Origin: a virus
Strand: one strand, 5' to 3'
IMG/VR virus record: IMGVR_UViG_3300021091_000333
Span: 1-27,790 of that record
Length of the DNA: 27,790 nt
Position numbers and translations under genes: made by a program. The notes beneath the pieces were generated by a model. That model ran no database searches and was not told the DNA's origin. It was given only the letters and a program-made list of their open reading frames with translations. This document shows, one piece after another, positions 1,926 to 19,101 of this stretch (position 1 is the stretch's first letter; each line of letters begins with the position of its first letter).

Positions 1926-4900
1926 CAATAAAAAATCCTTCATTTTCAAATCTTGTTGTAAGCCCAGCTTCTGCAGCTACGACAGATTTAAAAGTAAAAG
2001 TCAGCGAAATGACCAGCAGAGCAAAGAATATTACTTCATATTCGAGAAGAAGAGAAGGATCAGAAGTCTCAACAGAGCAGTCTTTTCTTACGCTATCAAG
2101 GGAATCTCTAAGAACGTCAACGGTTTTATCAGAAAACACAAATTCTGTTTTTGATTATAGCATATCGGATTTTGATTCAGAGATAACAGGAAGCGGGATC
2201 ACTAGTGCATATCCAGTCATTCTAGCGACTTTGCCTCTCCAGAATCTATTTTCAGGTGGAACTGAAACAAATTTTGGAATAATTTATGACTTACAGAATC
2301 AAGTAAGAGATGTTACAGTTCAGCTAGCAAATGACATAGTCAACAAATTTTATGAATCATCTCCTGCATCTTCTGCGTCACTGGAAAAAATTAGAGACAC
2401 AAATCTTTCAAAATATAACACACTCGCCACATCAATTCCTAAGATTTTTAGACTTAGAGAAGAGATCATGAACTCTACAGAGATCTTAGCCGGGTCTGAT
2501 ACACAGCTGTTAATGATTAAGCAAAAATCTTCAACAACAGAAGCTGATAGTCAATCAACCTCATCGAGAACAGTTGCTCCTCTAGGGTCTGAATCTTCAA
2601 TAACATTTACAGGTATTGGAAATGTTGCACTTTCAATCGCAAGCTCAATAAATGTTTCTAGAATACCTGTTCAATCTTTTTCTGCTCTTTCTGGAGATTT
2701 TGGAAATCTATCAGTAGAATACAATGACGGAGATATTACGAAATACGATTCCGGAAAGAACATTATTGACAGCCTGACAACTAGATTGCTCGGAGAAAAT
2801 AGACAAGAGCAAGCAAGAACAACCAGACAATATCAGCTTCTTAAGGCTGCAATTGCACAGATCCAAGAGGGTCGTAGGTTCAATGATGTAGACTCAGAAG
2901 GCGACTACACTAGCCCGTATTCTAGCCTTGACTACAGGAAAGTCTCTCCGATAAGCCAGCTCTTGTCTGACACAATTTCAATGAAGCCAGGATTTTTGTT
3001 TGCAAAAAGAACAATATCAGAAATTGCTACAATCGCTGAGAATGGTTATCTCTTACCGTCTCCTGCTGGTGCTGGATCAAGATCGGGAGACTTTAGCTCG
3101 TCAGGAGTAGCAGCGCTTCAAGGGCTGCAGGACTCGGGCGTATTTTACGCTGGAAAGCTAAAAATATCTGAAGGAAGCACGCAGATTGCCTACGAGGATG
3201 ACACAGACAATATTTTCATAGATATCCATACAAGTTTATTGTCGCCATCAACGGGTGAAGAAACCCGGATGCGGGTTTTGCCAGTGGTAGGGCTGAATCT
3301 AGAGCTTCTTACACAGAAGTTCGTAAATCAAATTCCGGTTTTTCTTGCTTCGAATATAGTAAATGCTCAAACATCTTTTCCAGAGATTCCTGCGGCAATT
3401 AATCCGAGAGAATCACAGCCTATCAGCGTCTCTGACACATATCTTGACCAGCTAAGATACATCAATCAAAATTCTCGCGGCGAAAACATTTATATGTTTG
3501 ATAATTTCTTGCAGGGATCGATTGGAGATCCTGCAACTGCTATTTCAACTGTTATTACAGCACCCGTCGAAGATCTAAAGACTTTGAAGTCAAACATTGA
3601 CGGAATAACTGCATCTATCGAACGGTTTGCAACTGATAGAAGGTTTGAAATTTCAAATCAGTGTTCTTTGACAATAATAAAAATATTTTACAAGCATTTT
3701 AAAGGCTTTTTTGATCAAAGTGTACTTGGTACAGAGACTACTAGCACATACAGCGCAATTAGGGCAGCAATGTTTTTTATCGCATCACAGGATTCTTATT
3801 CTGCTGCAAAGCTTTTTAGGCTGATATGCGCAGGAGAAGAAGAGCTCACAAATATGATAGCGAATTCAGAATCATTCAATAGCGATGAATCCAGATCGAG
3901 CGGCGGTGGCAGCTCCGGGAGCACTGGGAATGACGTTTTTAGAGTAGACAACACATTTAAAGGCGACTACGGAGGCGTCAGTGATCAGTATTCTGGCTTT
4001 ATTTCTGATTATTCAAGTGGAGCTCTAAAGACAGGCGATCCCGGTGATAAGCGCTCGGGCGTTAATATTAAAATCAGAGCACCCACACTGGCAGTTGATG
4101 CTCTTGCTACTGTGCAGGCGGCGGCGGTGGCGGTGGGGGCCGATGAGGACATCACATTTAATGAAGCGGCTGAATCAATAGAAATTATGGAGGCCCTCGG
4201 CGAAGGGGCCGCCGCTTTGTTTCCAAGCACGCTAAACAAGACCGGAGAAGAAGGATACGAAGATTTCTTGAAGTTTCTATACGACAAATCGGGAAGCTTC
4301 AAGACCATTGATAATATAGCGGCAGAGCTTGCCTCGTATTACCCTGCAATATCTCAAAATAAAAAGCTTGAGAATGAGGTAAAAATTTGTGCATATTTTA
4401 TGTTTTTGCATATCCTGCGAGGAATAAGTGCACAAATTTCACTGAAGCTAAATTTAGTATCTTATGGAGGAGAAAATTACCAAGTATTCCTAAAGTGGTT
4501 TCCTGCAGACATAGCAGCATTATCTGATTGTCTTGGCGAGGCTCTGGAGGAGACGACTTCTGCAGACATGAGATTTGAGAGATTTTCCAAGATTACAGGG
4601 ATCACTCCGGATCCAGATCAGATTTCTTTAATAGATTCATCATTCTTCAAAAAAATTAGGTCACCAATCAAGTATGCTTTGCAAGCTTCTCAAGATATGC
4701 AGTCTTTGCTTGCGTACCAGAACACTGTATTAAAATCACAAAGCAGTCTAATTCAGAGCATAATAAATCTCTACGATCAGATTTCCGATGTTTATGGAGG
4801 TGACTCTTCAAAGACTGCACGTATTGTGTCAAGATATTCAACAATAGATTCTGTTGTTGAGCTGCTGTACAGATCAAAAAGATATCAAACTCTGATTCCG

Positions 4901-5704
4901 GGTACTCAAATTTCCGCAGTCGCAACCCGATCGGAGAGCTACAGGTCGTTGGTGAAGGCAGCATTCAAAAATATTATTCCTGACAAGAATGATCTTCAGA
5001 TTTGCATAGTAGGTGTCCCCTATGGGATGCTTGAGAGAATGAGATTTGCGCTAGATGATAGAAATGAGTATTTTGGAGTTACTGCCTACTCGGGCGCAGC
5101 CAACACACTCGATCCGGTAGGAAAGAGAGCTGATTATAATTTTTCCTACAACACACAGTCTACAAATAGACGGCCAAATCTAGGCGGGCCTTATTGCTCT
5201 CTTGTCCCGAATATTGATGACAACTTTGATTCCAGCATAGAGTTCTCAACTGCAGCAGAGGATGATATTTCGATTCTAAAAATATCTAACGACGGATCTT
5301 CACTGGAGTCTCTAAGGCGCGGAGATTCATCGGATAACGTCAAGGCAATAGACATACCAGCAAATGTAGTTCAGGCTGCTCTGCAAGCCTACGTTGAAGA
5401 TATCTACGGTCTTTATCCAAGATATGCTTCGACAAAGGCACCAATGAAAGAGACCTATCGGGAGCAGACATTTGCTGATAAAGCACTCGAAGAACAAGGA
5501 TATAGGACTTTTGGATCTAGCGATGAAATACTTCAATACTACAGGCTAAGGGCAATGATAATGATGCACAGAGATTTCATAACCTCTAGAATGATCGATG
5601 AGCTCGAAGCTTCGCCTTCTTTTGATAGACTTGTTTACCTTGTTATAAATGGAGACAAGTTTGATGACATTGTGACTGAATTTTATTCACAGGTGGAGAT
5701 TTAA
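1922..5704 (+). CDS. Very large unknown virion protein (1260 aa)
   Basis: The ATG at 1922 lies inside the stop of the previous gene (ATGA), and the frame runs cleanly to TAA at 5702-5704. I do not recognise a family. Visible parts: a Ser/Thr-rich N-terminal third; a low-complexity Ser/Gly stretch near residues 656-668 (SSGGGSSGS), which looks like a flexible linker; an Ala-rich patch near residues 722-760 (AAAVAVGA) encoded by an unusually GC-rich segment at 4111-4142; then a mostly helical C-terminal half with several Tyr-rich segments. There is no signal peptide, membrane segment or nucleotide-binding motif. Its size and place between two beta-rich structural genes suggest a tail or baseplate component, but that is inference from context. 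The next gene starts on the last base of its stop codon (TAATG). Confidence 0.85.
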   Translation: MTIKNPSFSNLVVSPASAATTDLKVKVSEMTSRAKNITSYSRRREGSEVSTEQSFLTLSRESLRTSTVLSENTNSVFDYSISDFDSEITGSGITSAYPVILATLPLQNLFSGGTETNFGIIYDLQNQVRDVTVQLANDIVNKFYESSPASSASLEKIRDTNLSKYNTLATSIPKIFRLREEIMNSTEILAGSDTQLLMIKQKSSTTEADSQSTSSRTVAPLGSESSITFTGIGNVALSIASSINVSRIPVQSFSALSGDFGNLSVEYNDGDITKYDSGKNIIDSLTTRLLGENRQEQARTTRQYQLLKAAIAQIQEGRRFNDVDSEGDYTSPYSSLDYRKVSPISQLLSDTISMKPGFLFAKRTISEIATIAENGYLLPSPAGAGSRSGDFSSSGVAALQGLQDSGVFYAGKLKISEGSTQIAYEDDTDNIFIDIHTSLLSPSTGEETRMRVLPVVGLNLELLTQKFVNQIPVFLASNIVNAQTSFPEIPAAINPRESQPISVSDTYLDQLRYINQNSRGENIYMFDNFLQGSIGDPATAISTVITAPVEDLKTLKSNIDGITASIERFATDRRFEISNQCSLTIIKIFYKHFKGFFDQSVLGTETTSTYSAIRAAMFFIASQDSYSAAKLFRLICAGEEELTNMIANSESFNSDESRSSGGGSSGSTGNDVFRVDNTFKGDYGGVSDQYSGFISDYSSGALKTGDPGDKRSGVNIKIRAPTLAVDALATVQAAAVAVGADEDITFNEAAESIEIMEALGEGAAALFPSTLNKTGEEGYEDFLKFLYDKSGSFKTIDNIAAELASYYPAISQNKKLENEVKICAYFMFLHILRGISAQISLKLNLVSYGGENYQVFLKWFPADIAALSDCLGEALEETTSADMRFERFSKITGITPDPDQISLIDSSFFKKIRSPIKYALQASQDMQSLLAYQNTVLKSQSSLIQSIINLYDQISDVYGGDSSKTARIVSRYSTIDSVVELLYRSKRYQTLIPGTQISAVATRSESYRSLVKAAFKNIIPDKNDLQICIVGVPYGMLERMRFALDDRNEYFGVTAYSGAANTLDPVGKRADYNFSYNTQSTNRRPNLGGPYCSLVPNIDDNFDSSIEFSTAAEDDISILKISNDGSSLESLRRGDSSDNVKAIDIPANVVQAALQAYVEDIYGLYPRYASTKAPMKETYREQTFADKALEEQGYRTFGSSDEILQYYRLRAMIMMHRDFITSRMIDELEASPSFDRLVYLVINGDKFDDIVTEFYSQVEI

Positions 5705-7509
5705 TGTCTTCTTACGTCACAGACGTTGACCTGTTTGACATCACATCGTCAATCAGCACCCCTTTTTATCTTCTATCTCTGACTGGGAAGGAGCAGATAT
5801 CTGGACAATTTGTCTACAATTACTATACAAGAGACGAAGGAGTCTCTGAAACTGTAACTCTTGGTGCAGTCGATGCACAGAGCGATCAGTATGATTTTAT
5901 AGTTGAAAATTGGGAGAATGGAGTCTATCCTCGACAAATAAATCTTTCATTTTCTGTAAGATCAAAATATTTGCCGACAACGCTGGACAAAGGAGTTCTT
6001 ACAACTGCTGCACAAAATGAGCAAGTCATATTTGAAGATGCACCATTCAGCACAAAATTTTCAAGTGTCCTTGCTCATGACACATCTGTCGATGAAAAGA
6101 TATATGCTGCATTCGAAGGAGTCGATGATGCAGAAATACCCGAACGCACAAAAGGATTCTTGAACGTCTCAAGATTTCAATCGCAAGGATACAGATTTTC
6201 AAAAGCACAAGCAAGAGAAGAGATAGTAGACCTCTACGAGTCAGATACGAAGACCTTGAACCTTGCAATCTCTCTAAATTCCCTATTTGTAGCAGACGTT
6301 CTTAGGACTACAACAAGGTGGCAAGCTTCGGCATTCTCTGATGAATTTGCTTTTCCAATAGAAGAGGCACAGACAATTCAGGATAGTGCAAGATCAAACT
6401 CCTCAAATCCTTTTCAAATTTCTGAAGATGAAATAGACGTATCTTTGAAAGTAATTGAAACAAAATATGTAAGATCAAGTGTTCTATTTGGAAGCGCAGA
6501 GGAATCTAGTGTGTATGAAACTTATAGGACATCAAGGATTGGTTACATTATTGAAAAATACGGAGAACAGGTTGACGGATCTACTCTAAGACATGACGAT
6601 ATCATCATTGAGGATCCTAATGAAACTGCCTTCACAGACTCGCAGGTAAGATATGGGGGAGTTTACAATTACAGAATTAGAACTGTATATCGAACTTACA
6701 TAATTTCACCAAGAGAATCAGGAAGCGAGTTTTTTGATGGTTACGACATTGCAACAATATTTGTTGCAACAAAAGGTACTTACACCACCGTTCAATGCAC
6801 TGAAAACATTCCACCACTTCCGCCTAATAATATTTCCTTTCAGCAGACTCTGAGAGGCCTCTATATTCGTTGGAACTTTCCAATAAATACACAAAAAGAC
6901 ATAAAGCGATTTCAAGTCTTTAGAAGGAAAAGCATTGAAGATCCTTTTTCTTTGATTACAGAAATCAACTTCGATCAGACGATACTTCCTTATACAACAG
7001 GCGAGAATATTCCTAAAGAAAAGATAGAGAAATCAGTCGGACCAGTTAAGCACTACATTGATAGAGAATTTTCTGATATTTCTAGCGATTTCATCTACTC
7101 AATTTGTTCAATTGATGCACATGGGCTATCTTCTGCATATTCAGATCAGTTTCGGGTAAGGTTTGACAAAATTACAGGAAAACTATTAATTTCAAGAGTC
7201 TCAACAGAAGGAGCTCCCAAGCCATATCCAAATGTCAACGTCGAGGCAGATTTTTTCAGCGATCTAATCACAGATAGCGGTCACAGCAGGATTAGAGTCT
7301 ACTTTGATCCTGAGTATTCTGATGTAACTAGAAAGAGAAAAAGTCTTTCTTTGATTTCAAAGGATGAAATTGGTGTTGCAAATTACAAAATAAGCTTGAC
7401 TGAAATAAATCTCGCAAAAAGTCAAATATTCGATATATTTGTAGGAAAGAGCGGCGTAAATTCAGATGGAATACCGATCAGTCTCGCAAGGTTTTATACT
7501 GCAGATTGA
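5704..7509 (+). CDS. Virion protein with fibronectin-III-like domain (601 aa)
   Basis: The ATG shares a base with the upstream TAA, with GGAG at 5695-5698 as a plausible ribosome binding site. Residues about 368-485 look like a fibronectin type III domain: a Pro-rich entry (PPLPPNNISF), the strand LRGLYIRWNFP with its core Trp, FQVFRRKS, and a later YSICSIDAHGLSSAYS segment of the kind seen before the last strand. A similar strand pattern occurs just before it, about residues 270-360 (YNYRIRTVYRTYIISP), and may be a second copy. FN3 domains are common in phage tail, baseplate and fibre proteins, where they mediate assembly or weak surface binding. No enzyme motif is visible. With its two upstream neighbours it forms a tight three-gene group; a 51-base gap follows. 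Confidence 0.85.
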   Translation: MSSYVTDVDLFDITSSISTPFYLLSLTGKEQISGQFVYNYYTRDEGVSETVTLGAVDAQSDQYDFIVENWENGVYPRQINLSFSVRSKYLPTTLDKGVLTTAAQNEQVIFEDAPFSTKFSSVLAHDTSVDEKIYAAFEGVDDAEIPERTKGFLNVSRFQSQGYRFSKAQAREEIVDLYESDTKTLNLAISLNSLFVADVLRTTTRWQASAFSDEFAFPIEEAQTIQDSARSNSSNPFQISEDEIDVSLKVIETKYVRSSVLFGSAEESSVYETYRTSRIGYIIEKYGEQVDGSTLRHDDIIIEDPNETAFTDSQVRYGGVYNYRIRTVYRTYIISPRESGSEFFDGYDIATIFVATKGTYTTVQCTENIPPLPPNNISFQQTLRGLYIRWNFPINTQKDIKRFQVFRRKSIEDPFSLITEINFDQTILPYTTGENIPKEKIEKSVGPVKHYIDREFSDISSDFIYSICSIDAHGLSSAYSDQFRVRFDKITGKLLISRVSTEGAPKPYPNVNVEADFFSDLITDSGHSRIRVYFDPEYSDVTRKRKSLSLISKDEIGVANYKISLTEINLAKSQIFDIFVGKSGVNSDGIPISLARFYTAD

Positions 7510-7560
7510 TTTTAACTGTGCACTCAAGGCGTGGATATTTAAAGTAGCGAGGGTTTTAAA

Positions 7561-8265
7561 ATGGGATTCCTCAATCAGGATTCAAACAACATCATACTTG
7601 ATGCTGTTCTTACTGACACGGGCAGAAGGCTCCTTGCGAGCCAAGGAAGATTTGTCATCACAAAGTTTGCATTATCAGATGATGGTGTTGACTATGGAAT
7701 AATAGAGCAGTATGGTAGAAATGTTGGAAAGGAAAAGATAGAGAAGAACACACCAATGTTTGAGGCACTAACAAATCCAACACTTGCCATACGAAATAGC
7801 TTGCTTAGTATTTCAACAGTTTCAAATGTTGTGACTTATTTGCCAAGGCTCTCACTGTCGCCTAACGAGACAATTCTTCTGAATTTTTCCAGCACAACTT
7901 CGAAGACCATCAGTATCGAGCTATCAATTGAGGATGGATTTTCTGCTGCTGCCGAGATGATAGATGATGACTTTTTCGTTAGTGTTGACAATAGGTTCCT
8001 GCGTGCCTCTTCTACGAGCGTGTCGGTGCCGACCTCCATATCTTCGACTAGCATTGCGACATACACATTCCCAGCTGACGCAACTGCTGCAACAAATCCT
8101 CTCTCGAGGCTCTCTTTCACACTTACGCCACAGGCAGTTCCTGCAGCAACACAGCTCGCATACAAGGTTCCTGGAACAACCTACGTTGCAACTTACGTGA
8201 GTGTAATAGGAAGAAATTCTGGACAGAGAGCTGATATTCTTGTCAACATCACAACAACACAGTAG
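7561..8265 (+). CDS. Structural protein, GFLNQDSNNIILDAVLTDTG N-terminus (234 aa)
   Basis: The start is ATG at 7561 with the ribosome binding site AGGG just upstream. The N-terminal 60 residues (GFLNQDSNNIILDAVLTD, then GRRLLA and KFALSDDGVDYG) resemble, from memory, a block conserved in structural proteins of marine T4-like phages; I cannot confirm that by search. The C-terminal two thirds are Ser/Thr-rich and beta-like and look less constrained (strings such as TSVSVPTSISSTS). This suggests a conserved assembly head followed by a variable shell. The gene opens a second structural group after the longest gap in the left half of the window, and a TAGGA overlapping its stop serves the next gene. 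The role in the virion is unknown; tail-associated is my guess. Confidence 0.8.
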   Translation: MGFLNQDSNNIILDAVLTDTGRRLLASQGRFVITKFALSDDGVDYGIIEQYGRNVGKEKIEKNTPMFEALTNPTLAIRNSLLSISTVSNVVTYLPRLSLSPNETILLNFSSTTSKTISIELSIEDGFSAAAEMIDDDFFVSVDNRFLRASSTSVSVPTSISSTSIATYTFPADATAATNPLSRLSFTLTPQAVPAATQLAYKVPGTTYVATYVSVIGRNSGQRADILVNITTTQ

Positions 8266-8273
8266 GAATAAAA

Positions 8274-9557
8274 ATGCCTGTTTACAAGAGCATAGGACCA
8301 AAAGACCTAAAGACAACTCGTTCTTTCCTGAATCAACTTGTTGATGTTGTTCAGCAGAGCATCAGCGGATCAAACACAAGAAAAAGCTACGAGGTCTTTG
8401 TTTCGGGATCTGGCGCTGCTTCTTTGACATCATCCATCTTCCAGACAGTCTTCGACCAGGACTTTACGCTCGCAACAGCAAATGAGATGTTCGACATCAC
8501 AGTAGGGTTGTTTGCTTCGAGCAGCGTTGTTACTGGATCTCCAGGATACGGAGTTGATACAGCTGGAAAATTGACGTTCGCATCAAACACTGCCATGATG
8601 AGAGAAAAGGTTCAAGTCTACAATCAGTTTGCACAGGCCTTGCTTGGAGATGCAACATCTCAGTTCTCGTCTCCATTCACTGGCGGGACTGATTCTGATA
8701 AAATTGAATCTGCTCTCTTTATGCCATTCAAGCGACTGTTCTCTAGAGACAGCATAAAGCCTGAAACTTTTGCGATGAAGCTTTTTAGATCTGCAACTCT
8801 TGATGGATCTACATTTGCAGGATCTCATGAAAAGACAATCCTTAATGGACTGACTGCTTCCAATATCAACTTTCCGGGAGCGTCTGGTTCGATGATCATA
8901 ACAGACGCAGGTGCTGGATCAACTCCTCAGTTCACTTACGGAGGAACTGTTGCAAACCTTGTGAACTCTCAGAACACAAATGAAAAACTTGGGTTGATAT
9001 TCTATGACTACGGTGTCGCTGTTCTTGACATGAAGAAAACCTTTTTCCATGATCAGCATATGAGCGGCACAATAAGCGCAGCAACGGGGTCTGACATATT
9101 TGCAGGAACAACAACGTCTGCAGGAAGCACATTCATCGGTCGAGAGTTTGCTGCTGTCACAAATCGTTCTGCAACTTTTATTCCAGACTTTGTTGTATCG
9201 GCCTCAATTGACGACATTGTCAATCATCTGGCATCAGTTAGATTTGGAAATATATCCAACGCAAACGATACATCAATAACTTTCCAAAACATCACGACTA
9301 TAAATTCTACCCTTGTGTTCTGCAGAGCAACTGCTGATGAGTTTAACTACTCGTCAAATCCAACCTATACGGATACAGACGGAAGGATAGTCGTAATAAA
9401 CGAAGGAAATGAGTTGACAGAGACACCGTTTGTTTTCATCACGACAATTGGATTGTACGATGCAGCAGATAATTTGCTTGCTGTTGCAAAGCTTTCCCGA
9501 CCAGTTGAGAAGTCACCAGAGAAGGAGCTCACACTTAGACTTCGACTCGATTTCTGA
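8274..9557 (+). CDS. Structural protein with shared C-terminal module (427 aa)
   Basis: The ribosome binding site AGGA at 8264-8267 overlaps the previous stop, seven bases before the ATG. Early residues contain SSIFQTVFDQDFTLATANEM, which I recall from structural proteins of marine T4-like phages. The last ~190 residues match the end of the next gene product in order and spacing: a LGLIFYDYGVAVL strand pair, an EFNYSSNPTY segment, then a TTIGLYD/LLAVAKLS strand pair and a final RLRLDF. The two therefore share a C-terminal module. It has no enzyme motif and no membrane segment. Together with its neighbour it probably makes part of the tail surface or fibre apparatus, the shared module perhaps being the point where each trimerises or docks. 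Confidence 0.8.
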   Translation: MPVYKSIGPKDLKTTRSFLNQLVDVVQQSISGSNTRKSYEVFVSGSGAASLTSSIFQTVFDQDFTLATANEMFDITVGLFASSSVVTGSPGYGVDTAGKLTFASNTAMMREKVQVYNQFAQALLGDATSQFSSPFTGGTDSDKIESALFMPFKRLFSRDSIKPETFAMKLFRSATLDGSTFAGSHEKTILNGLTASNINFPGASGSMIITDAGAGSTPQFTYGGTVANLVNSQNTNEKLGLIFYDYGVAVLDMKKTFFHDQHMSGTISAATGSDIFAGTTTSAGSTFIGREFAAVTNRSATFIPDFVVSASIDDIVNHLASVRFGNISNANDTSITFQNITTINSTLVFCRATADEFNYSSNPTYTDTDGRIVVINEGNELTETPFVFITTIGLYDAADNLLAVAKLSRPVEKSPEKELTLRLRLDF

Positions 9558-9563
9558 GGTTGC

Positions 9564-11921
9564 ATGTCAGTCGTTGTCATTAGTCCCGATCTAGTCGAAA
9601 TAAATACGCTGCTTCTGCAGCCAAGCCAGTCTTTTTCTTCATCTTCGTCGGGAATAACAGGCAGCATAAGACTTTTGTCAAAACCATCCCAGTCAATTAA
9701 GGTAATTCCAGGTTCAATTTCTGGAGTTTCCTTTGTTGAAACAGCTGGTATTACACCTGACGATGATCTTCTTTATAATGCAAGTGAGTCCTATAAGCTA
9801 GGATCAACTAATATATTTCAGCAGATCTCTGCATATGTCAACAATGTCAATAACACCGGCGTCGGAAAAAAGAATATAATTCAGACACATCCTATTCGGA
9901 TAGAGTCACCAAGCAAGATATCTGCACCAGAAATCAATCTTCAAACAGGCATCGTTTCATTCAATACAGACCCCCACGATTGGCAGAATTTACATAGACG
10001 AGTGGTGAGAAAAATTCTTATCCCAGATCAACTTGTTGAAAATCCACTGTCATTTTTTTCCTACACAAATTACAACTGCATCAATTTTGTTTCATCAAGT
10101 AATTTTCCAACAGCATCGGCAATAGTGTTTCCTAATTTTCCAAATGCAAAAGGAATTAGAGATTACACTCCTGACAAGGAATTTACTGTTGATTTTTTTA
10201 TAAAGCCTCGTGCACCAATTGAAGCGGCTAGAAGATATCACGCAGGATCAATACTCCACATCTCATCTTCAATATGCATATCTCTTGCGAGTGGCTCTAC
10301 GCTAGGTCCCGACCAGAAGCCTGATAAGTTCAGAATAGTGCTTCAGCTAAGTCAAAGCGCAGATGTGAAACCAGACAGGTTGAATCTAGACTCGCTACCC
10401 CTTGCAGCACCTTCTGACTTAACTTTTGCAACTCCTGATGTTCTTGACAGAGACTCGTGGAACAGAGTAACAATTAGATGGGGCGCTTCTCAAAGAAGCT
10501 TCGGAACGGGATCGATACAGGTCAATAAATCACTAACCAGATTCAACGCAAATTTTCAGACAATATCCACGGGCCTTGCAAGTGATGCCCTTATGATTGG
10601 AAACTTTTATGATAGCGGAGACAGGATTGCAAGGTTTTTCAATTCTACAGCAGCAGCGACGTACGGAACTGAAACAGACACAGTTCCGGGCACGTCAGAT
10701 CCTGTAGGAATAACACTTAGCAATCCTCTAAATGCAGAGATTCATCATCTGTCAATTTTCAAAAGATACGTTCCTGATAATGAAATTAACTCAATAAACA
10801 AACTGTATCAGCTAGAAGATTTTGATGGCGGTCCTGCATTCTTTTTGCCTCCTTTCTTCACATCTTCTATTCCTGCTGCCGTTATTGTTCCCTACACTCC
10901 GATTTCCACGAATGAGCTAAAAACAGACGATCCTATCTTTCACAGGATGGCTTTAGGATACAGCGCGCTATATGTTAATACTCAAAATTTCTTGATCGAT
11001 TTTGCAAAAAAGAAGCAGTCCAGAGCTTATGGTATGTCAGAATTTACCAAACTTGCGGGTACCTTTGATTCAAGAGAGGGAACTGTCGACAGCCTAATTA
11101 TGAAGCAGCCTAGTGTTAGAAGAAGAAATTTCACAATACTTCCATGCGATAATGGAAATTTTGAGCCTGATTTCAGCATACTTGATAATGATTCAACAAG
11201 ATTTCACACCGCTTCGAATTTTGCTTCATCAATGATTCTTTCTCTTGAAAATCTTGCACCTATAAGCTCTTATTATCCAGTAACAAAATTTGGAGAATTT
11301 AGCTATGACGGGTCAGATTCTCCTTATTTACCGTTTTTGCAAGATATAAACTTTCCAACAGCCGTTGGTGATCTTGCAGATCGAAGCTCAAACAGGGTTG
11401 TGATATTCACTATTCCTAGCATATACTATATGAACAGGATAATACCTGGAACTTTTGCTATCTCTGATTTAAATATGTCTGGATCTGGTGGAATATCTTC
11501 CACCCTTCGAGATGACGAAAAAGGAAATCTCTATCGATCCGACTGCATCTCTCCTCCTGCCAAGTGGAACAGAGTCGGTTCGATCTTCTATTCTCACGGA
11601 ATTGTCGCAATACTATCTCCTCATCTTCCTTTCTTTGGAAAGACCGGATTCGAGATGTCATTCAGGGGAGATACACGCCGAATTGTTGCAAATTTTACAG
11701 TTCCTGCATCTCCGGGAGAAGTCAACAACTCTTACAATCCAACATACCAGAGTTTTCCGCCTACGTCACTTCGGTCTGAACAAGCCGATGAATTCACGTA
11801 TATTAGTGGTATAAACTTACACGATGAGAATTTTAACGTTGTAATGAGAGCAAAACTAGCACAGTCAATCCAGAAGAGAGAAGGTGATGAGATCGTTTTT
11901 AGGCTAAGATATGACTTCTAG
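9564..11921 (+). CDS. Large virion protein with LamG/ConA-like domain (785 aa), candidate adhesin
   Basis: ATG at 9564 follows GAGG at 9556-9559. Residues about 203-415 read like a LamG/concanavalin-type jelly roll: FTVDFFIKPR, then WNRVTIRWG, ALMIGNFYDSG, and the closing strand LNAEIHHLSIFKRYVPDNEI, the order typical of LamG-type domains found in surface-binding proteins. A beta-rich region follows, and the last ~130 residues repeat the C-terminal module of the previous gene (SIFYSHGIVAIL, NNSYNPTY, ending FRLRYDF). A lectin-like domain on a virion protein suggests binding of host surface glycan, so it is a reasonable receptor-binding candidate, though LamG folds can also be purely structural. 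The last 11 bases overlap the resolvase gene in another frame. Confidence 0.8.
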   Translation: MSVVVISPDLVEINTLLLQPSQSFSSSSSGITGSIRLLSKPSQSIKVIPGSISGVSFVETAGITPDDDLLYNASESYKLGSTNIFQQISAYVNNVNNTGVGKKNIIQTHPIRIESPSKISAPEINLQTGIVSFNTDPHDWQNLHRRVVRKILIPDQLVENPLSFFSYTNYNCINFVSSSNFPTASAIVFPNFPNAKGIRDYTPDKEFTVDFFIKPRAPIEAARRYHAGSILHISSSICISLASGSTLGPDQKPDKFRIVLQLSQSADVKPDRLNLDSLPLAAPSDLTFATPDVLDRDSWNRVTIRWGASQRSFGTGSIQVNKSLTRFNANFQTISTGLASDALMIGNFYDSGDRIARFFNSTAAATYGTETDTVPGTSDPVGITLSNPLNAEIHHLSIFKRYVPDNEINSINKLYQLEDFDGGPAFFLPPFFTSSIPAAVIVPYTPISTNELKTDDPIFHRMALGYSALYVNTQNFLIDFAKKKQSRAYGMSEFTKLAGTFDSREGTVDSLIMKQPSVRRRNFTILPCDNGNFEPDFSILDNDSTRFHTASNFASSMILSLENLAPISSYYPVTKFGEFSYDGSDSPYLPFLQDINFPTAVGDLADRSSNRVVIFTIPSIYYMNRIIPGTFAISDLNMSGSGGISSTLRDDEKGNLYRSDCISPPAKWNRVGSIFYSHGIVAILSPHLPFFGKTGFEMSFRGDTRRIVANFTVPASPGEVNNSYNPTYQSFPPTSLRSEQADEFTYISGINLHDENFNVVMRAKLAQSIQKREGDEIVFRLRYDF

Positions 11922-12444
11922 GGTTGTTGTTGGATTAGACGTATCTACTTCTTGCACTGGAATATGCTGCCTTGATGAGAATGGAAATATTCTAAAAATT
12001 TCTCCCATAGTTCTCACAAAAGAGGATACATTTTCCAAAAAATGTGATCTGATAACTCGTGAGCTCACAGGCATTTCTAAAGAAATGAAAATTTCCGAAG
12101 TTTTCATTGAGCAAAACCTGAGCTCTTTTAGAAGGGGTCTCTCATCCGCTCATACGATCAATACGTTGGCAAGATTCAACGGAGCCTGCAGTCTAATAGC
12201 TTACCGGGTGTTTGGTGTTGATCCTGTCCTGCTTAACGTCACAAATGCAAGAAATCACGTCGGGCTGAGGATGAATCACAAGGATAAGACGGTCTCTACT
12301 AAGGAAAAAGTCTTTTCCTGGGTTTCACCTCGGGTCGAAGTTTTGTGGCCTCTGAAAAAGAACGGCGAACGCAAGGATATCTGTTACGACATGGCAGATG
12401 CATACATAATAGCACTTGCCGGATTAACAGGTTGTAAAGAGTAG
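11911..12444 (+). CDS. ruvC: RuvC-type Holliday junction resolvase
   Basis: At 177 aa this is close to the usual RuvC length (about 170). The RNase H fold catalytic acids are all in place: D10 in VGLDVSTSCTG, E67 in VFIEQN, and D160 with D163 in YDMADAYIIA. Spacing resembles E. coli RuvC (D7, E66, D138, D141). The expected activity is metal-dependent symmetric cutting of four-way DNA junctions. In T4 the same need, debranching replicated DNA before packaging, is met by the unrelated endonuclease VII (gp49); this phage may use a RuvC-type enzyme instead. The ATG at 11911 lies within the last codons of the structural gene upstream, so it is probably co-translated with it. No clear Shine-Dalgarno is present. 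It opens the DNA metabolism block. Confidence 0.85.
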   Translation: MTSRVVVGLDVSTSCTGICCLDENGNILKISPIVLTKEDTFSKKCDLITRELTGISKEMKISEVFIEQNLSSFRRGLSSAHTINTLARFNGACSLIAYRVFGVDPVLLNVTNARNHVGLRMNHKDKTVSTKEKVFSWVSPRVEVLWPLKKNGERKDICYDMADAYIIALAGLTGCKE

Positions 12445-12451
12445 ATTTTCT

Positions 12452-13429
12452 TTGTTTGATTACATTGTGCAATCAACTTTTACTGAAAAGATCTCATTTA
12501 TTGAACGATCCTTTGGAAAAGGTGTTCTTTCTCGCAGCGGCGATGATATTGCCATTGCTTGTCCAGCGTGCAAGGATAATAAAAAGAAAAAGCTTTCTAT
12601 TTCGTTGAACACCTGGGGTTTTCATTGCTGGGTTTGCAACACCAAGGGCAGAACTCTTGTTCCTCTGCTTAGGAAGTACAAGGGCAGAGACCTTCTTGAA
12701 GAGTACAGACGAAACTTTTTGAATCAAAAGTTTTCATATGATGTTGACTCTAACCAGGAACAAAAATTTGAATATCCAGCAGGTTTCATTCCATTAGTAA
12801 ATCTACTGGATTCGAAAGATCCAAACGTGAAAGCTGCACTAAAATACCTCAGATCTCGAGGTTTGACTGATTCTGATTTTTACAGGTATCGTGCAGGTGT
12901 GACACCTAATGGAAAAGATTCTAGGAGAGTGTATTTTATTTCGCTGGATAGCACTGGAGAAGAAAACTATTTTGTTTCAAGATCAATAGACCTGAGCACA
13001 AAGCAGCGCTATGTCAACTCAACCATCGACAAGATGAAGATTGTTTTCAACGAATGCGAAGTTGATTGGGATTCTCCTGTCTATCTGGTTGAAGGAATAT
13101 TTGATCAGATAAGACTCGGAAAAAATAGCATCTGCATGCTCGGATCTTCCTTGCCTGAATCTTCGCTGTTGTTCAAAAGAATAGTTGAAAATCAGTGTCA
13201 CATAATACTTGCTCTCGATTCTGACGCCAAGGAGAAGGAAAGAAAAATTGCTGACACTCTGATTGAATATGGATGCAATGTCGATATTTTGACAGTTTCA
13301 AATGGAAAAGATTTAGGATCAATGTCAGGAGAAGAAATTGAAAAATCTATCCGTTTTATTTCTCCTTGGAATGCAAAAACATCACTTCTCTCCAAAATAG
13401 GAATGATCAGAAGCGGTTCTATCCTGTAG
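12452..13429 (+). CDS. DnaG-type DNA primase (zinc finger plus TOPRIM)
   Basis: It is 325 aa, close to T4 primase gp61 (about 340). The N-terminus carries a zinc-binding site (C37-x2-C40 and C59-x2-C62, with H58 beside it) that would read template DNA. The middle region (residues about 125-205) fits the RNA polymerase part of the primase. The TOPRIM core is visible as E214 in VYLVEGIFD and D256/D258 in ALDSDAKEKE, the metal-binding acids that catalyse primer synthesis. There is no helicase domain, so a separate gp41-like DnaB helicase is expected elsewhere in the genome. The start is a TTG at 12452; no ATG or GTG precedes it in frame after the resolvase stop, and AAAGAG lies about ten bases upstream. 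The neighbours are recombination genes. Confidence 0.85.
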   Translation: MFDYIVQSTFTEKISFIERSFGKGVLSRSGDDIAIACPACKDNKKKKLSISLNTWGFHCWVCNTKGRTLVPLLRKYKGRDLLEEYRRNFLNQKFSYDVDSNQEQKFEYPAGFIPLVNLLDSKDPNVKAALKYLRSRGLTDSDFYRYRAGVTPNGKDSRRVYFISLDSTGEENYFVSRSIDLSTKQRYVNSTIDKMKIVFNECEVDWDSPVYLVEGIFDQIRLGKNSICMLGSSLPESSLLFKRIVENQCHIILALDSDAKEKERKIADTLIEYGCNVDILTVSNGKDLGSMSGEEIEKSIRFISPWNAKTSLLSKIGMIRSGSIL

Positions 13430-13444
13430 AAGATATGTAGGCTT

Positions 13445-13777
13445 ATGCGTTCAATTAGAGAGATGGTCCGTTCAATTCTGAAAGATGATGCGCTTTATGC
13501 GCGCAGAGATTTGCCCGGTGATGTCGATGATCAGATTGATCACGAAGATTGCGGTTGTAGCAATGTGTGTAATTGCAACAAGGGCTGCGGATGCGACTGC
13601 GGGTGTGATAACTACGCGGGCGACGAAAACTACGTCACGCCAAAGTATGCTCTTTATTCTATGATCGGAGAAGCAATATCGCTGTATGATCGAATGGATG
13701 AAGATAGCACGGGCGACAAGAGTATTGACGATCTCATTGTTTCAACTGCACACATGTTCAGAAAATTAAACGGTTGA
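13445..13777 (+). CDS. Small protein with metallothionein-like CxC cysteine cluster (110 aa)
   Basis: I do not recognise this protein as a named family. Three parts are visible. An N-terminal amphipathic helix (MRSIREMVRSILKDD) resembles the starts of two other small proteins in this window. Residues 36-54 hold eight cysteines as C36, C38, C42, C44, C48, C50, C52 and C54: every cysteine is in a CxC pair, as in metallothioneins, and there is no histidine in the cluster. A C-terminal helical part, about residues 66-108, follows (YALYSMIGEAISLYDRM and later STAHMFRKL). The cysteine cluster reads as an insert between two helical ends. Metal binding is a strong inference; its purpose is not. It sits between primase and the SbcDC fusion, with short gaps on each side. 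Confidence 0.75.
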   Translation: MRSIREMVRSILKDDALYARRDLPGDVDDQIDHEDCGCSNVCNCNKGCGCDCGCDNYAGDENYVTPKYALYSMIGEAISLYDRMDEDSTGDKSIDDLIVSTAHMFRKLNG

Positions 13778-13808: not shown

Positions 13809-16800
13809 ATGAAGATTGCACATTTTGCTGATGTACATTTTAGAGGGCTTTCTCGGCACGCTGAATATCGAGAAGCTTTTGAAGATGCATTTCAAACTCT
13901 AAAGGAATTGAAGCCTGATCTTATTTACATCGGCGGTGATATTGTTCATTCAAAGACACAGGGAATAACACCAGAGATAATTGATGTTCTTCACTGGTGG
14001 TTTAAGTCTCTTGCAGATATCGCACCTGTTGATGTCCTGCTTGGAAATCACGACGGTCTGATTATGAATAAGAACAGACAGGATGCTGTCTCACCTGTGA
14101 TTGCTGCGCTAGGTGATCCAAGAATCAGAATAATGAAGAAATCTGGAACTTACGAAACAAATTATCCTCAGTTTGTTTTTCACGCTTTTTCATTGTTCGA
14201 CAATTCAGGATGGGAGAACATTATTCCTGTTCCTGGAAAAATCAACATTGCGCTTTACCACGGTGCTGTGAGGGGTGCAACGTCTGATACAGAGTATGAA
14301 ATCGAGGGAGAAACAACAGTTTCTTTCTTTGAGAAATTTGATTTTTCACTACTTGGAGACATTCACAAGCGCCAGTTCTTGAACAGCCAACGCACTATTG
14401 CATATTGCGGATCAACAATTCAGCAAAACTACGCTGAAGAGCAGAGCAAGGGATTTCTGTTTTGGGACATTAGAAGCAGAAATGATTTTGACGTAACATT
14501 CCACCCTGTCAAGTGCATTCACCCGTTTGTCACAGTATCATTCTCTGATGATACAGATCCTGTTTTTGCTCTCAAAAGTGTGCCTGAAAGATCGCGCGTG
14601 CGGCTAGATGTTTCCTGTCGGGACTCTAATAAGCTGCGTGATTTCTGCGACTTGATTGAAAATAAGATTCATCCAATTGAGATAACCTACAAGACTCACG
14701 TTGATCCCGCAGGACACACTGTTAAAGCACAGGAGAGCTCTTCTCCTATTGACGTAAAGAAGTCTTTGATAGATTTCATCAACCGGAGGGGATTACCAGA
14801 AGAGGTCACAAGTGAGGCTATTAAGCAGCTTGATTTTTATCTATCTTCTAGAGATGGCGCAGAGGATACCGTCAGAAATGTCAAGTGGGATCTCAATAAG
14901 ATTGAATTTGATAATCTATTTGCTTACGGAGATAGAAACTCAATAGATTTTGGATCTCTTCCCGGGATCACAGGAATATTTGGAAAGAATAGAACTGGAA
15001 AATCTTCAATTATTGGCGCCATCGTTTACTCTCTCTTCAACACAACTGACAGAGGGAGTATGAAAAATTTGCATGTTATCAATGCCAAGAAAGATTCTTG
15101 CCGTTCAAAAGTAGATCTATCTGTATCTTCTGACAGATATGAAATCACTAGAGAGACAATTAAAAACTATCCTAAAAAATCTGAAGTTTGGGCCAGCACT
15201 ACGCTTTCTGTGTCAAAGCAATCCGCAGGGGATGCTGACAAGACAGATCTCAATGATGAGCAAAGGAGAGAGACTGAGAAGGTCCTAAGAAGTCTAATTG
15301 GGACTGCTGATGATTTCTTCTATACTTGCTTGTCTCCGCAGGGATACATGAATCTTTTCATCAATGAGAAGTCAACAGCAAGAAAGCAAATGCTGACCAG
15401 GTTCTTAGACATTGACTATTTTGAGGAGCTCAATAACAAGGTAAAGTCGGATATTGCTCCCTATAAGACTAAACTGAAATTCTCCGGAACAGAGACAGAT
15501 TGCAAGAATCTAATCGATCTGTCTGATAGAAAAATTTCTGAACTTGAGACAAAAAAAGATGTTCTCATCAAAGAATCAGAAAATCTCAGAAATCTGATTT
15601 CTGAGATCAATGGAAAGATCCCACCGGACACAATAAAAAACAAGAGAGAGCTTTCTAGGCTTTCTGAGGAGCTGAACAAGACATCACTCGAAATTCAGCG
15701 GGCAGAGGATGATCTAGAAAGAGAGAAATCCAATCTGGATTTAGTTGTCTCTAAGCTTTTGCGTACTCGAAAAGCTCTGAGCGAAGTGAGCTTTGCAGAG
15801 CTTGAGAAGCAGTCAAACGATCAGCGAGACATTTCTCGACAAATAGAATCTGAGGAAAAAGACCTTAGATCTAGGCAGCGCGAGAGAGATACTCTCCTTA
15901 AGTCTGTTGAACTTCTAGGGCAGGTACCATGTATGGGACAGTACCCGACATGCCAGTTCATCTGCGATTCACACAGAAACAAAGAGCGGCTACCTAGCAT
16001 CGAATCTCAGGTATCCGGCAAGGAAAGATCAATTCAGATTCTAAAGAATAGATCAAGCTCTCTCGAGAAAGAAAATCCAATTGATGCCCTAAAGAAAGCT
16101 ACAAAGATAAGAGATCTTCAAAAAGAGCTTGAGTTTGAGGAGAAAAGCTTTGAATCAAGGATTGCTGTTTTATCTGAAAGAATTTCAAATAAAAATCACA
16201 CGCTCGACCAGGTGAAGAAGAAAATTGATGAAATTAGGTCCAGTAATTCTGAAATAGAATCAGGAGATGAGCTGAGGTTGATGCCTCTCGAGGATTCGCT
16301 TAGACAAAAAGAAAAAGAGATACTCTCTTGCGCAACAGAGATTGGAGTTCAAACAGAGAAGATCAGGCAGCTGAAAAACCAGATTAGTGAGATTTATTCT
16401 TCTCAAAATGCACTGCGAGTTCTTGAGACACTTGAGGCGGCTTTCTCCAAGAAGGGCGTGCCACAAGAGATTATTTCAAGAGCTCTACCCAAGATCAATT
16501 CTGAGATTTCACAGATTCTTGATGGCATTGCAGGATTCAATGTTGAGATAGAGTGCGATGATTCAAATTCGGTGGAGGTCTACATAAATTACGGAGACAG
16601 TCGTAGGTTAATTGAGCTAGGTTCCGGTATGGAGAAGATGATATCTTCAATAGCGATTCGTGTTGCGCTGACGAATGTTTCTTCTTTACCTAAATCAAGC
16701 ATGTTTATAATCGATGAAGGGTTTGGTGCCCTTGATGAGAATAATCTTGAGGCATGCGCTCGACTTCTCACTAATCTTAAATCTTATTTTAAGAACATTC

Positions 16801-16892
16801 TCATCATATCGCACGTTGACGCAATCAAGGATATTGTTGATAATGTAATAGACATTGGATGGGAGGATGGATATGCAAGAGTCTCATGCTGA
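13809..16892 (+). CDS. sbcD-sbcC: Fused SbcD-SbcC (gp47-gp46) recombination nuclease/ATPase, 1027 aa
   Basis: One uninterrupted frame carries both subunits of the Mre11-Rad50-type complex. Residues 1 to about 355 are the calcineurin-like nuclease: D8-H10 (FADVH), GGD 42-44, GNHD 79-82, H151 and GDIH 183-186. Residues about 358-1027 are the SMC-like ATPase: Walker A GKNRTGKSS 392-400, Q-loop near Q511, coiled coil about 565-700 and 725-870, a cysteine apex (C708, C715, C719) where the zinc hook belongs, signature ELGSGMEKM 936-944, Walker B MFIIDEGFGALDE with D969/E970, and H1002. In T4 these are two genes (about 340 and 560 aa) that resect DNA ends for recombination-dependent replication and host DNA breakdown. 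Here the join falls where gp47 would end. No strong Shine-Dalgarno precedes the ATG. Confidence 0.92.
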   Translation: MKIAHFADVHFRGLSRHAEYREAFEDAFQTLKELKPDLIYIGGDIVHSKTQGITPEIIDVLHWWFKSLADIAPVDVLLGNHDGLIMNKNRQDAVSPVIAALGDPRIRIMKKSGTYETNYPQFVFHAFSLFDNSGWENIIPVPGKINIALYHGAVRGATSDTEYEIEGETTVSFFEKFDFSLLGDIHKRQFLNSQRTIAYCGSTIQQNYAEEQSKGFLFWDIRSRNDFDVTFHPVKCIHPFVTVSFSDDTDPVFALKSVPERSRVRLDVSCRDSNKLRDFCDLIENKIHPIEITYKTHVDPAGHTVKAQESSSPIDVKKSLIDFINRRGLPEEVTSEAIKQLDFYLSSRDGAEDTVRNVKWDLNKIEFDNLFAYGDRNSIDFGSLPGITGIFGKNRTGKSSIIGAIVYSLFNTTDRGSMKNLHVINAKKDSCRSKVDLSVSSDRYEITRETIKNYPKKSEVWASTTLSVSKQSAGDADKTDLNDEQRRETEKVLRSLIGTADDFFYTCLSPQGYMNLFINEKSTARKQMLTRFLDIDYFEELNNKVKSDIAPYKTKLKFSGTETDCKNLIDLSDRKISELETKKDVLIKESENLRNLISEINGKIPPDTIKNKRELSRLSEELNKTSLEIQRAEDDLEREKSNLDLVVSKLLRTRKALSEVSFAELEKQSNDQRDISRQIESEEKDLRSRQRERDTLLKSVELLGQVPCMGQYPTCQFICDSHRNKERLPSIESQVSGKERSIQILKNRSSSLEKENPIDALKKATKIRDLQKELEFEEKSFESRIAVLSERISNKNHTLDQVKKKIDEIRSSNSEIESGDELRLMPLEDSLRQKEKEILSCATEIGVQTEKIRQLKNQISEIYSSQNALRVLETLEAAFSKKGVPQEIISRALPKINSEISQILDGIAGFNVEIECDDSNSVEVYINYGDSRRLIELGSGMEKMISSIAIRVALTNVSSLPKSSMFIIDEGFGALDENNLEACARLLTNLKSYFKNILIISHVDAIKDIVDNVIDIGWEDGYARVSC
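16862..16866 (+). promoter_or_regulatory. Shine-Dalgarno that sets the zinc-ribbon start
   Basis: GGAGG lies six bases before ATG 16873. This favours that ATG over the TTG at 16855 and the ATG at 16867, which would sit upstream of or directly on the site. The site is inside the last codons of the SbcDC fusion. Confidence 0.65.
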
Positions 16893-17130
16893 GAACATGC
16901 CATTCTTTTGCAAGGTTTGTGAATTTCCTCACGATCTAAGCAGAGATTGGGATTACTTCAAAAAATTTCAAATGTGTCAAGAATGTGCAATGTCGCTTGT
17001 CGAGGCAAGACAATCAGACTGGAAGAAAGGATGGCGTCCGACACAAGAGCAGATAGATATGTATATTAATGAAAGATTGCACCTAATCAGGTGCTCCAGA
17101 GGATATGATGCTAAGCTTCCAGGAAATTAA
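16873..17130 (+). CDS. Small zinc-ribbon protein (85 aa)
   Basis: I choose ATG 16873 because GGAGG lies six bases upstream; starting at TTG 16855 would add six residues. The gene overlaps the end of the SbcDC fusion by 20 bases and the next gene by about 23. It has two CxxC knuckles, FCKVC and MCQEC, about 22 residues apart, the spacing of a treble-clef or zinc-ribbon finger. A helical tail follows (SLVEARQSDWKKGWRPTQEQ). Such small zinc ribbons often bind DNA or a partner protein; nothing in the sequence decides between these. Its place, tightly coupled between a recombination nuclease and the packaging genes, suggests a late or packaging accessory role. The family is not one I can name. Confidence 0.7.
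   Translation: MQESHAENMPFFCKVCEFPHDLSRDWDYFKKFQMCQECAMSLVEARQSDWKKGWRPTQEQIDMYINERLHLIRCSRGYDAKLPGN
17098..17102 (+). promoter_or_regulatory. Shine-Dalgarno for the 127-aa gene
   Basis: AGAGG lies five bases before the second of two adjacent ATGs (17108) and only two before the first (17105), so 17108 is the likelier start. It lies inside the upstream zinc-ribbon gene. Confidence 0.5.
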
Positions 17131-17491
17131 TGTTCTAGGACAGATTCTTAATACGACGTGGGGCGGAACTTCAACTTCTGTCTCGCCTACGTGCTCCATC
17201 AAGCACACAATGCAGGGCGACGTAATCACTCTGACATACACTACGATTACAAACATTGTCATGGGAATAAACCCAAGAGACCAAGTCAGAGAGCAAGAGA
17301 GAGAGTCGGTTGAGATGCTTAAGCAGTTTGTCAAGAATCTTGAGAAGTCTTTCAAGGAGTCGACTGGAAAAAGTCTAAAACTAAAAGAAATAGGCTCAGA
17401 CGATTCTGTTGAGATGATCTCAATGTCTCCTCACAATCCAAAGCGCACAGCTTACTATCGGAGAAAGACTTCATTTAGAATTGGTGATTAG
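17108..17491 (+). CDS. Unknown protein directly upstream of terminase (127 aa)
   Basis: Two adjacent ATGs exist; 17108 is better spaced from AGAGG (17098-17102), while 17105 would add one residue. The N-terminal half is beta-like (LGQILNTTWGGTSTS, then IKHTMQGDVITLTYTT), the middle is a charged helix (REQERESVEMLKQFVKNLEK), and the tail is basic (PKRTAYYRRKTSFRIG). T4 has its small terminase gene 16 in this position, and the length is near that of gp16 (164 aa), but I see no helix-turn-helix or long coiled coil, so I do not call it a small terminase. The fold looks like a small conserved phage protein of unknown role. Its stop shares one base with the terminase GTG start. Confidence 0.7.
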   Translation: MLSFQEINVLGQILNTTWGGTSTSVSPTCSIKHTMQGDVITLTYTTITNIVMGINPRDQVREQERESVEMLKQFVKNLEKSFKESTGKSLKLKEIGSDDSVEMISMSPHNPKRTAYYRRKTSFRIGD

Positions 17492-19101
17492 TGTCCACAC
17501 AAGCACCTAACAAACAGCGTCAAGTTCAGGAAATAATAAGGTGCGGAAAGGACCCAATCTATTTTTTCAACATGTATGTTAAGATTCAGCACCCAACCAA
17601 GGGATTGCTCCCGTTTAAGACGTATCAATTCCAGGACGAATGCGTCAGAGGCTTTATAGAAAATAGATTCACTGTTGTTGTTAAGGGAAGACAGCTTGGA
17701 CTGTCAACGCTTGTCGCTGCCTATGCAGTATGGCTTGCACTCTTCCAAAAAGACAAAAATATTCTCATTATTGCCACAAAGCTTCAGGTGGCACAGAACT
17801 TCATAAAGAAAACAAAAACTATACTTCGAAACTTACCGCCTTGGCTGATGCTTCCGCAGATAGTTGCTGATAATAAGCAATTTGTAGAATTCAGCCATGG
17901 ATCCTCTATTAAAGCAATTCCAACATCTGATGATGCAGGCCGATCTGAGTCTCTATCACTTCTAATTGTTGATGAGGCTGCTTTCGTTAAGAACTTTGAT
18001 GAGCTCTGGACTGGTCTCTACCCTACTCTGTCCACAGGAGGTCGTGCAATTGTTCTTTCAACCCCTAACGGAGTTGGTGGACAATACTACAAGCTTTATA
18101 AGGAGGCTGAGTCTGGTATCAACGAGTTCAAAGCAATTAAGCTGAACTGGGATGTTCATCCCGAGAGAGATCAGGAATGGTTTGAAAAAGAGACAAGAAA
18201 CATGTCCCCACGACAGATCGCACAGGAGCTCCTGTGCGATTTTGCATCTTCTGGTGAGACATTTCTAGGAGATGATGAGCTGAAGTGGGTTTTCAACAAT
18301 ATCAAGAATCCAATAGAGAGAAAGGGATTTGACAGGAACGTTTGGGTCTGGAAGTACCCGCTTTCTGAGAACAAATACCTGATATCAGCCGACGTCTCAA
18401 GAGGCGACGGAAAAGATTATTCCACATTTCACATCATAGATCTAACGACCGGAGAGATCGTAGCAGAGTACAAAGGAAAGATTGCCCCAGACCGTTTTGG
18501 TGATCTCCTGTGTGAATACGGATTGTTGTATAATAAGGCACTTCTCTGCCCAGAAAATAACACATACGGATATGCGACAATCATTCGACTTCGAGATCTG
18601 AACTATCCGAGAATGTATTATCAAAAGAGCAACGCGGTCTACATTGGAGATTATGTTCCTCCAGGAAATACTGAGTCTGCCGGATTTAACACAAGCGGAA
18701 AGACACGCGGCCTTATTTTGACAAAGCTTGAGGAGCTTATAAGAAACAAGCTTCTAATAACCTATTCTTCGAGATTCTATGACGAACTAAAGACTTTCGT
18801 CTGGCAAGATAATCGAGTTGCTGCAATGAAGGGAGAGAATGACGACCTTGTTATGTCTCTCGCTATTGGAGCATGGCTGTACGATGCATCATCTGAGCAC
18901 TCTAGAGATTCAGGAGCAATAAACAAAGCAATGCTGGCAGGAATGTCAGTCAATACTAATCACTTTAACGGTGCCTCGAATAGTATTATGAATAATGAAC
19001 ACATAAAAAATGTTCAAGCCAAGAGAGATCTGGTTACAGGCGGAAAAAGATCACAACCGGGAATGATACCACCAGAATTTGCGTGGGTCTATAGAGGATA
19101 A
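17491..19101 (+). CDS. terL: Terminase large subunit (gp17-like DNA packaging motor)
   Basis: The protein has both functional halves. The ATPase part has a P-loop-like KGRQLGLST at 65-73, which lacks the usual final Lys and instead has K65 in front, and Walker B LLIVDEAAF with D161/E162. The nuclease part has the RNase H-type acids D301 (SADVSRGDG), E355 (PENNTYG) and D451/D452 (ENDDLVMSLAIG), matching T4 gp17 D401, E458 and D542 in order. The length of 536 aa is near T4 gp17 (610). It pumps concatemeric DNA into the prohead through the portal and cuts it when the head is full. The start is GTG overlapping the preceding stop (TAGTG). A perfect 24-bp palindrome lies within it at 18217-18240. 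Confidence 0.95.
   Translation: MSTQAPNKQRQVQEIIRCGKDPIYFFNMYVKIQHPTKGLLPFKTYQFQDECVRGFIENRFTVVVKGRQLGLSTLVAAYAVWLALFQKDKNILIIATKLQVAQNFIKKTKTILRNLPPWLMLPQIVADNKQFVEFSHGSSIKAIPTSDDAGRSESLSLLIVDEAAFVKNFDELWTGLYPTLSTGGRAIVLSTPNGVGGQYYKLYKEAESGINEFKAIKLNWDVHPERDQEWFEKETRNMSPRQIAQELLCDFASSGETFLGDDELKWVFNNIKNPIERKGFDRNVWVWKYPLSENKYLISADVSRGDGKDYSTFHIIDLTTGEIVAEYKGKIAPDRFGDLLCEYGLLYNKALLCPENNTYGYATIIRLRDLNYPRMYYQKSNAVYIGDYVPPGNTESAGFNTSGKTRGLILTKLEELIRNKLLITYSSRFYDELKTFVWQDNRVAAMKGENDDLVMSLAIGAWLYDASSEHSRDSGAINKAMLAGMSVNTNHFNGASNSIMNNEHIKNVQAKRDLVTGGKRSQPGMIPPEFAWVYRG
18217..18240. repeat. Perfect 24-bp palindrome followed by TTTT, inside terminase
   Basis: The left arm ATCGCACAGGAG is followed at once by its exact reverse complement CTCCTGTGCGAT, and the T at 18240 begins a run of four T. 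As RNA it would form about a 10-bp stem with a 4-base loop, in the shape of a weak intrinsic terminator, but it encodes the in-frame residues IAQELLCD. Confidence 0.85.
19093..19097 (+). promoter_or_regulatory. Shine-Dalgarno that sets the portal start
   Basis: AGAGG lies five bases before ATG 19103. This supports that start rather than the longer frame opening at 19079 inside the terminase gene. Confidence 0.65.

Follow-up and report, generated by a model that had tools for sequence, protein, structure and literature searches.

A single-chain Mre11-Rad50 (SbcD-SbcC) gene from a probable T4-type myovirus, fused in its sampled relatives and split again inside the nuclease in some of them

The window analyzed here, a stretch of viral DNA of 27,790 nucleotides, holds a gene that very probably encodes a single-chain Mre11-Rad50 of a T4-type myovirus, which would form an M2R2-type dimer and resect DNA ends for recombination-dependent replication and repair. 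We infer the enzyme activity, the dimeric form, and the role in infection from knowledge of the family and from the neighboring genes. Within the sampled lineage this fusion is both old and fixed, and a single chain is how Mre11-Rad50 normally occurs across a widespread group of aquatic myoviruses. As a kind of protein it is not new, as it was described in 2011.

The open reading frame (Table 1) runs in one frame with no internal stops. Pfam profiles match Metallophos over residues 1-175 (E 4.6e-11), AAA_23 over residues 364-637 (E 3.2e-11), and, below threshold, SbcC_Walker_B over residues 932-988, while the PHROGs profiles assign residues 1-341 to SbcD (E 2.6e-29) and residues 358-1025 to SbcC (E 2.8e-60). 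On this sequence evidence, chance is excluded as the source of the domain matches in a frame of 1027 aa. The proposal made in a sequence-only reading, that a full nuclease and a full ABC ATPase share one 1027-aa protein, has thus been confirmed by the reading frame, Pfam, and PHROGs. No in-frame ATG, GTG, or TTG was found between residues 320 and 418, which makes a separate SbcC translated from an internal start implausible.

Table 1. Features of the single-chain gene, its conserved neighbors, and its interrupted relatives (positions without a locus name refer to the window).
Feature	Position	Strand	Basis or remark
Single-chain SbcD-SbcC (Mre11-Rad50) gene	13809..16892	+	ATG start at 13809, 1027 aa, profile matches
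Mre11/SbcD nuclease domain	13809..14543	+	~residues 1-245; Pfam Metallophos, phrog_100, model
Nuclease motif I, D8-V-H10	13830..13838	+	invariant where aligned
Nuclease motif II, GGDIVH 42-47	13932..13949	+	D44, H47 invariant in 132/132
Nuclease motif III, GNHD 79-82	14043..14054	+	alignment
Nuclease motif IV, H151	14259..14261	+	alignment
Nuclease motif V, GDIH 183-186	14355..14366	+	D184, H186 invariant; Asp for usual His
Rad50-binding two-helix domain of Mre11	14754..14846	+	residues 316-346; model helices 316-326, 331-346
Linker at the join	14847..14882	+	residues 347-358; model; without start codon
Walker A, GKNRTGKS 392-399	14982..15005	+	K398, S399 invariant
Coiled-coil arm, ascending	15417..15923	+	residues 537-705; model
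Apex hook VPCMGQYPTC, Cys-X6-Cys (C708, C715)	15924..15953	+	residues 706-715; model loop
Coiled-coil arm, descending	15954..16445	+	residues 716-879; model
ABC signature ELGSGMEK 936-943	16614..16637	+	G940, E942 invariant
Walker B and D-loop MFIIDEGFGALD 965-976	16701..16736	+	Pfam, alignment
H-loop H1002	16812..16814	+	conserved in 131/132
RuvC-like resolvase, conserved neighbor	11911..12444	+	phrog_159, synteny
DNA primase, conserved neighbor	12452..13429	+	phrog_47, synteny
T4-type large terminase, downstream neighbor	17491..19101	+	synteny
Re-split relative, example	L053:5001-8226
More re-split loci	L016, L044, L055, L063, L252, L253, L255, L256, L259, L261, L272, L281, L293, L300, L302
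Endonuclease-like genes in the break	L060:2979-3881, L292:2075-2977, L265:2108-2977, L083:3665-4582

The phosphoesterase motifs of Mre11/SbcD (DxH, GDxxD/H, GNHD, H, and GxxH) are all present, with H47 and D184 as variants. Both active-site substitutions, the His of motif II and the Asp of motif V, are fixed in all 132 proteins of the conservation alignment (131 homologues plus the query). The latter stands where P. furiosus Mre11 has His206, and could alter metal use or activity. Such fixation would also suit a protein acting mainly as a DNA-end tether, whose nuclease would be weak or inactive owing to these two residues. However, the ligand positions are all metal-capable and invariant, which speaks for catalysis being under selection, and the GDxxH form of motif II is also found in the examined SbcD proteins of Herelleviridae. 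A tether is considered very unlikely, and a catalytically competent nuclease is the preferred reading.

The Rad50/SbcC set (Walker A, Q-loop, signature, Walker B, D-loop, and H-loop) is complete as well. All the motif sets that had been listed from the sequence are therefore in place, with details that require correction: motif II reads GDxxH, the signature is ELGSGMEK and not LSGG, and the hook is C708-X6-C715 and not CXXC. When the hooks of the 132 proteins were scored by pattern, 121 showed CX6C, typically as VPCGDxFPTC, and the remainder CX2C (5), CX8C (4), or CX3C (2). The CXXC hook has been called conserved among Rad50 homologues across all forms of life (PMC5093744), and CX2C is the spacing found in the three Herelleviridae and the T4-like cyanophage examined, while a Moorella phage carries CX7C (VPCNDKLKPSC). 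A word search of the literature for hook spacings other than CXXC returned nothing relevant, which is weak evidence of novelty, and the Cys-X6-Cys hook in place of CXXC may be a new detail. Because the Cys spacing is atypical, dimerization through the hook, including zinc binding, is putative in this clade.

An AlphaFold2 model of the monomer, obtained from a 57-sequence alignment (mean pLDDT 84.9, pTM 0.49), shows a two-helix segment, a linker, the ABC head, and an antiparallel coiled coil (residues 537-879) with the apex loop. The join, previously placed at about residue 355, corresponds in the model to residues 347-358, between the end of the Rad50-binding helices and the first Rad50 strand. 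In the PDB, the leading matches to the model are the heads of Rad50 and of other SMC-type proteins, together with SbcD on the N-terminal part. In Foldseek comparisons, the nuclease and capping-domain fold resembles S. aureus SbcD (7dog, TM 0.69 by target length), and Rad50 heads reach TM ~0.72 by target length. Sequence matches among solved structures are exclusively Rad50, SbcC, Mre11, and SbcD chains. The best viral structural matches are mostly full-length, fusion-sized proteins from giant viruses, Tenacibaculum jumbo phages, and a Listeria phage, the nearest neighbors being mimivirus-like proteins.

Scans of IMG/VR and GTDB yielded relatives at 162 loci that were classified. The junction is reached in 153 of them and bears a stop in none; three of the 153 were flagged as interrupted, all inside the nuclease and none at the junction. 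In a second count, enlarged by loci from a third scan and listing some contigs under two locus ids, all 195 loci with a readable SbcD-C/SbcC junction were fused there, within a survey biased toward long fused matches by the use of a fused query. A second scan of IMG/VR gave at least 600 candidate stretches, of which at least 579 encode relatives, and the fusion family is therefore large. The proteins of near relatives from other metagenomes (L002, L003, L004, L013, and L037; 65-71% identity) equal that of the window in length. Their genes are arranged in the order RuvC-like resolvase, primase, Cys-rich ORF, fusion, small ORF, terminase, and portal, which, minus the Cys-rich ORF, is kept down to ~37% identity.

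These independent contigs with a fused junction lead us to reject an assembly or reading error, and bear out the earlier view that the architecture has evolved. An artifact of this type, or the chance loss of a stop in a single phage whose true genes are separate, does seem to occur elsewhere, in Listeria phage LMTA-57, where a 1009-aa frame is joined through intergenic-type sequence. In contrast, the join in the window has neither an intergenic remnant nor a start codon, the protein is matched in length by its 65-71% identical relatives sampled in other metagenomes, and fusion is seen at every junction that can be read, so that this explanation is extremely improbable and a genuine fusion is retained. 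The LMTA-57 fusion (L247:3495-6524) is apparently recent and independent, and may be a sequencing error; it looks like a recent read-through because its join retains intergenic-type sequence and the Met start of SbcC. In the sister Listeria phages the match is confined to the SbcD part.

Judged by comparison with the published description of R555, the window protein is a member of the known group of R555-like Mre11/Rad50 fusions. In 2011, Yoshida, Claverie, and Ogata reported such a fusion for Mimivirus R555 and for twelve other sequences, a set that includes Bacillus phage 0305phi8-36, plasmids, bacteria, and eukaryotes (PMC3175470). R555 homologues were argued to be abundant in aquatic viral metagenomes and often phage-borne, while the long environmental sequences that confirmed the fusion itself were few (PMC3175470). 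Both proteins consist of one ORF with Mre11 at the N-terminus and Rad50 at the C-terminus, a short linker, and a retained HLH, and come from an aquatic virus setting; they also share GDxxH in motif II and Asp for His206, which on the R555 side are taken from its description (His in motif II, Asp for P. furiosus His206; PMC3175470). R555 differs in its length (1351 aa) and its cellular-length coiled coil, whereas the 1027-aa window protein comes from a T4-type myovirus. The 2011 inference, drawn mostly from short metagenome reads, is extended here to long contigs with phage synteny. The fusion had been regarded as unusual, a view that does not hold, given that all sampled relatives are fused, with all 195 readable junctions among them, and that the kind was already published; the original observation is right and its significance was overstated.

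Other single-chain proteins have been found. Microcystis phage Mel-JY01 encodes one of 1066 aa (WWT39521.1, annotated as 'AAA domain containing protein') with a primase upstream, but it is only ~29% identical to the window protein and has a CX2C-type hook (HEYDPKCKHC) instead of CX6C. Further fusions occur in a 735-kb uncultured phage and in LMTA-57, and fusion-sized structural matches in the Tenacibaculum jumbo phages pT24 and PTm1. A fused homologue of 1043 aa (L167:4001-7129, 38% identity) was also observed on a contig of 305,838 bases binned as a Methylococcaceae MAG, which is possibly a jumbo phage contig.

Separate genes for the two enzymes, which had been proposed for T4, E. coli, and Bacillus phages, were indeed found in the T4-like cyanophage and in most of the Herelleviridae examined. 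T4 gp46/gp47 and Herelleviridae SbcC/SbcD are the same two enzymes, and in the annotated records examined the SbcD gene precedes SbcC and lies near replication genes; T4 gp46/gp47 occupy two ORFs and the window protein only one. In three Herelleviridae the genes lie ~90-110 nt apart, and in cyanophage S-CAM9 a small ORF lies between them. These phages exhibit Cys-X2-Cys hooks and GHYH in motif V, in contrast to CX6C and GDIH in the window. That the Herelleviridae genes are themselves read-through fusions was rejected, as the sequence between them has stops in all three frames and looks intergenic. In a quick IQ-TREE analysis, in which some rows sit on long branches, a branch with 100% support parts the fused clade from the Herelleviridae, the T4-like cyanophage, and the Moorella phage.

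A fixed 1:1 ratio and a covalent link had been put forward as the meaning of the fusion. Separate Mre11 and Rad50 subunits already assemble 1:1, and for this reason the link is unlikely to change the stoichiometry. The proposal is also doubtful in light of ~20 related contigs in which the catalytic half has been separated again. In these (26 of 190 loci, ~20 distinct contigs) the break in the frame falls after motif V and before the IAYPGS...QQN segment; the window gene itself is not re-split. At most of these loci a GTG, TTG, or ATG overlaps the upstream stop or is only a few bases away from it, and both the tail (RDVEIEIDE..L.KYPGAEVIE) and the head (SKKIKIRTKKPW) are conserved, features that together suggest that the halves are two translationally coupled genes. 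A group I intron was discarded as the explanation, since Rfam reported none in L083 and the stop/start overlaps favor two coupled genes. All the metal ligands of the re-split nuclease are on the N-terminal piece, and, because this is a separate polypeptide, the catalytic half apparently does not need a covalent link to the ATPase.

A gene of ~300 codons lies inside the break in four distinct contigs (L060, L265, L292, and the 484-kb phage LR756508). The in-break proteins of L060, L083, and L265 match homing or HNH endonuclease profiles, and that of L292 is the same as that of L060. These endonuclease-like proteins have a cysteine-rich N-terminus and a Vsr-, TnsA-, or PvuRts1I-like C-terminus. 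A FastTree phylogeny, with long branches and with gains and losses of the split indistinguishable, needs six changes between the fused and split states, at least five of them forced by well-supported branches. A comparable arrangement is known in phage Aeh1, where nrdA is split by mobE and the two pieces still give an active enzyme (PMC2988022). As in L060, L265, L292, and L083, a homing endonuclease gene resides inside a split phage gene; the target gene is different, however, and the parallel concerns the re-split relatives and not the window. The break inside the nuclease domain of this clade may be a new detail. On balance, it seems probable that the clade gene has been broken again several times at one site after motif V, presumably by homing-endonuclease invasion, leaving a free catalytic half and a capping/Rad50-binding part fused to the ATPase, and that this arrangement with its CX6C hook would constitute a new structural variant with catalysis in trans. 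The re-split relatives amount to a natural experiment on which covalent links are required by the machine, and the natural single chain could ease structural work on the Mre11-Rad50 complex.

In the proposed mechanism, two single chains would dimerize into the usual M2R2 head, ATP would clamp both ABC heads on a DNA end, and the Mre11 nuclease would then shift to its cutting position, with the coiled coils meeting via the apex hook. The reaction would leave a resected 3' end to be used in break repair and in recombination-dependent replication, as with T4 gp46/gp47, and the neighboring RuvC-like resolvase and primase would act alongside. The terminase and portal genes, which lie within a few hundred bases downstream in an order kept in relatives, could instead point to a use outside replication, such as host DNA degradation or the cutting of hairpin or branched DNA before packaging, and cellular SbcCD is reported to cut hairpins (PMC6265447). 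Nevertheless, the nearest conserved upstream neighbors are the primase and RuvC-like genes, T4 gp46/gp47 act in recombination-dependent replication, and the two uses are not exclusive. A non-replication use is judged unlikely, and end resection for replication and repair is preferred.

Regarding the rest of the window, tRNA and Rfam scans of its whole length found nothing, and the long ORFs at 1922-11921 (1260, 601, 427, and 785 aa), upstream of the fusion, matched neither Pfam nor PHROGs profiles at E 0.001. Directly upstream of the fusion, positions 13445-13777 encode a 110-aa protein with a dense cysteine cluster (CGCSNVCNCNKGCGCDCGC), for which no family match was found and which has counterparts of 41-48% identity at the same place in near relatives. 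At the other end, a small ORF with two CxxC pairs (16873-17130) overlaps the 3' end of the fusion by 20 bases, and its place is kept in relatives.
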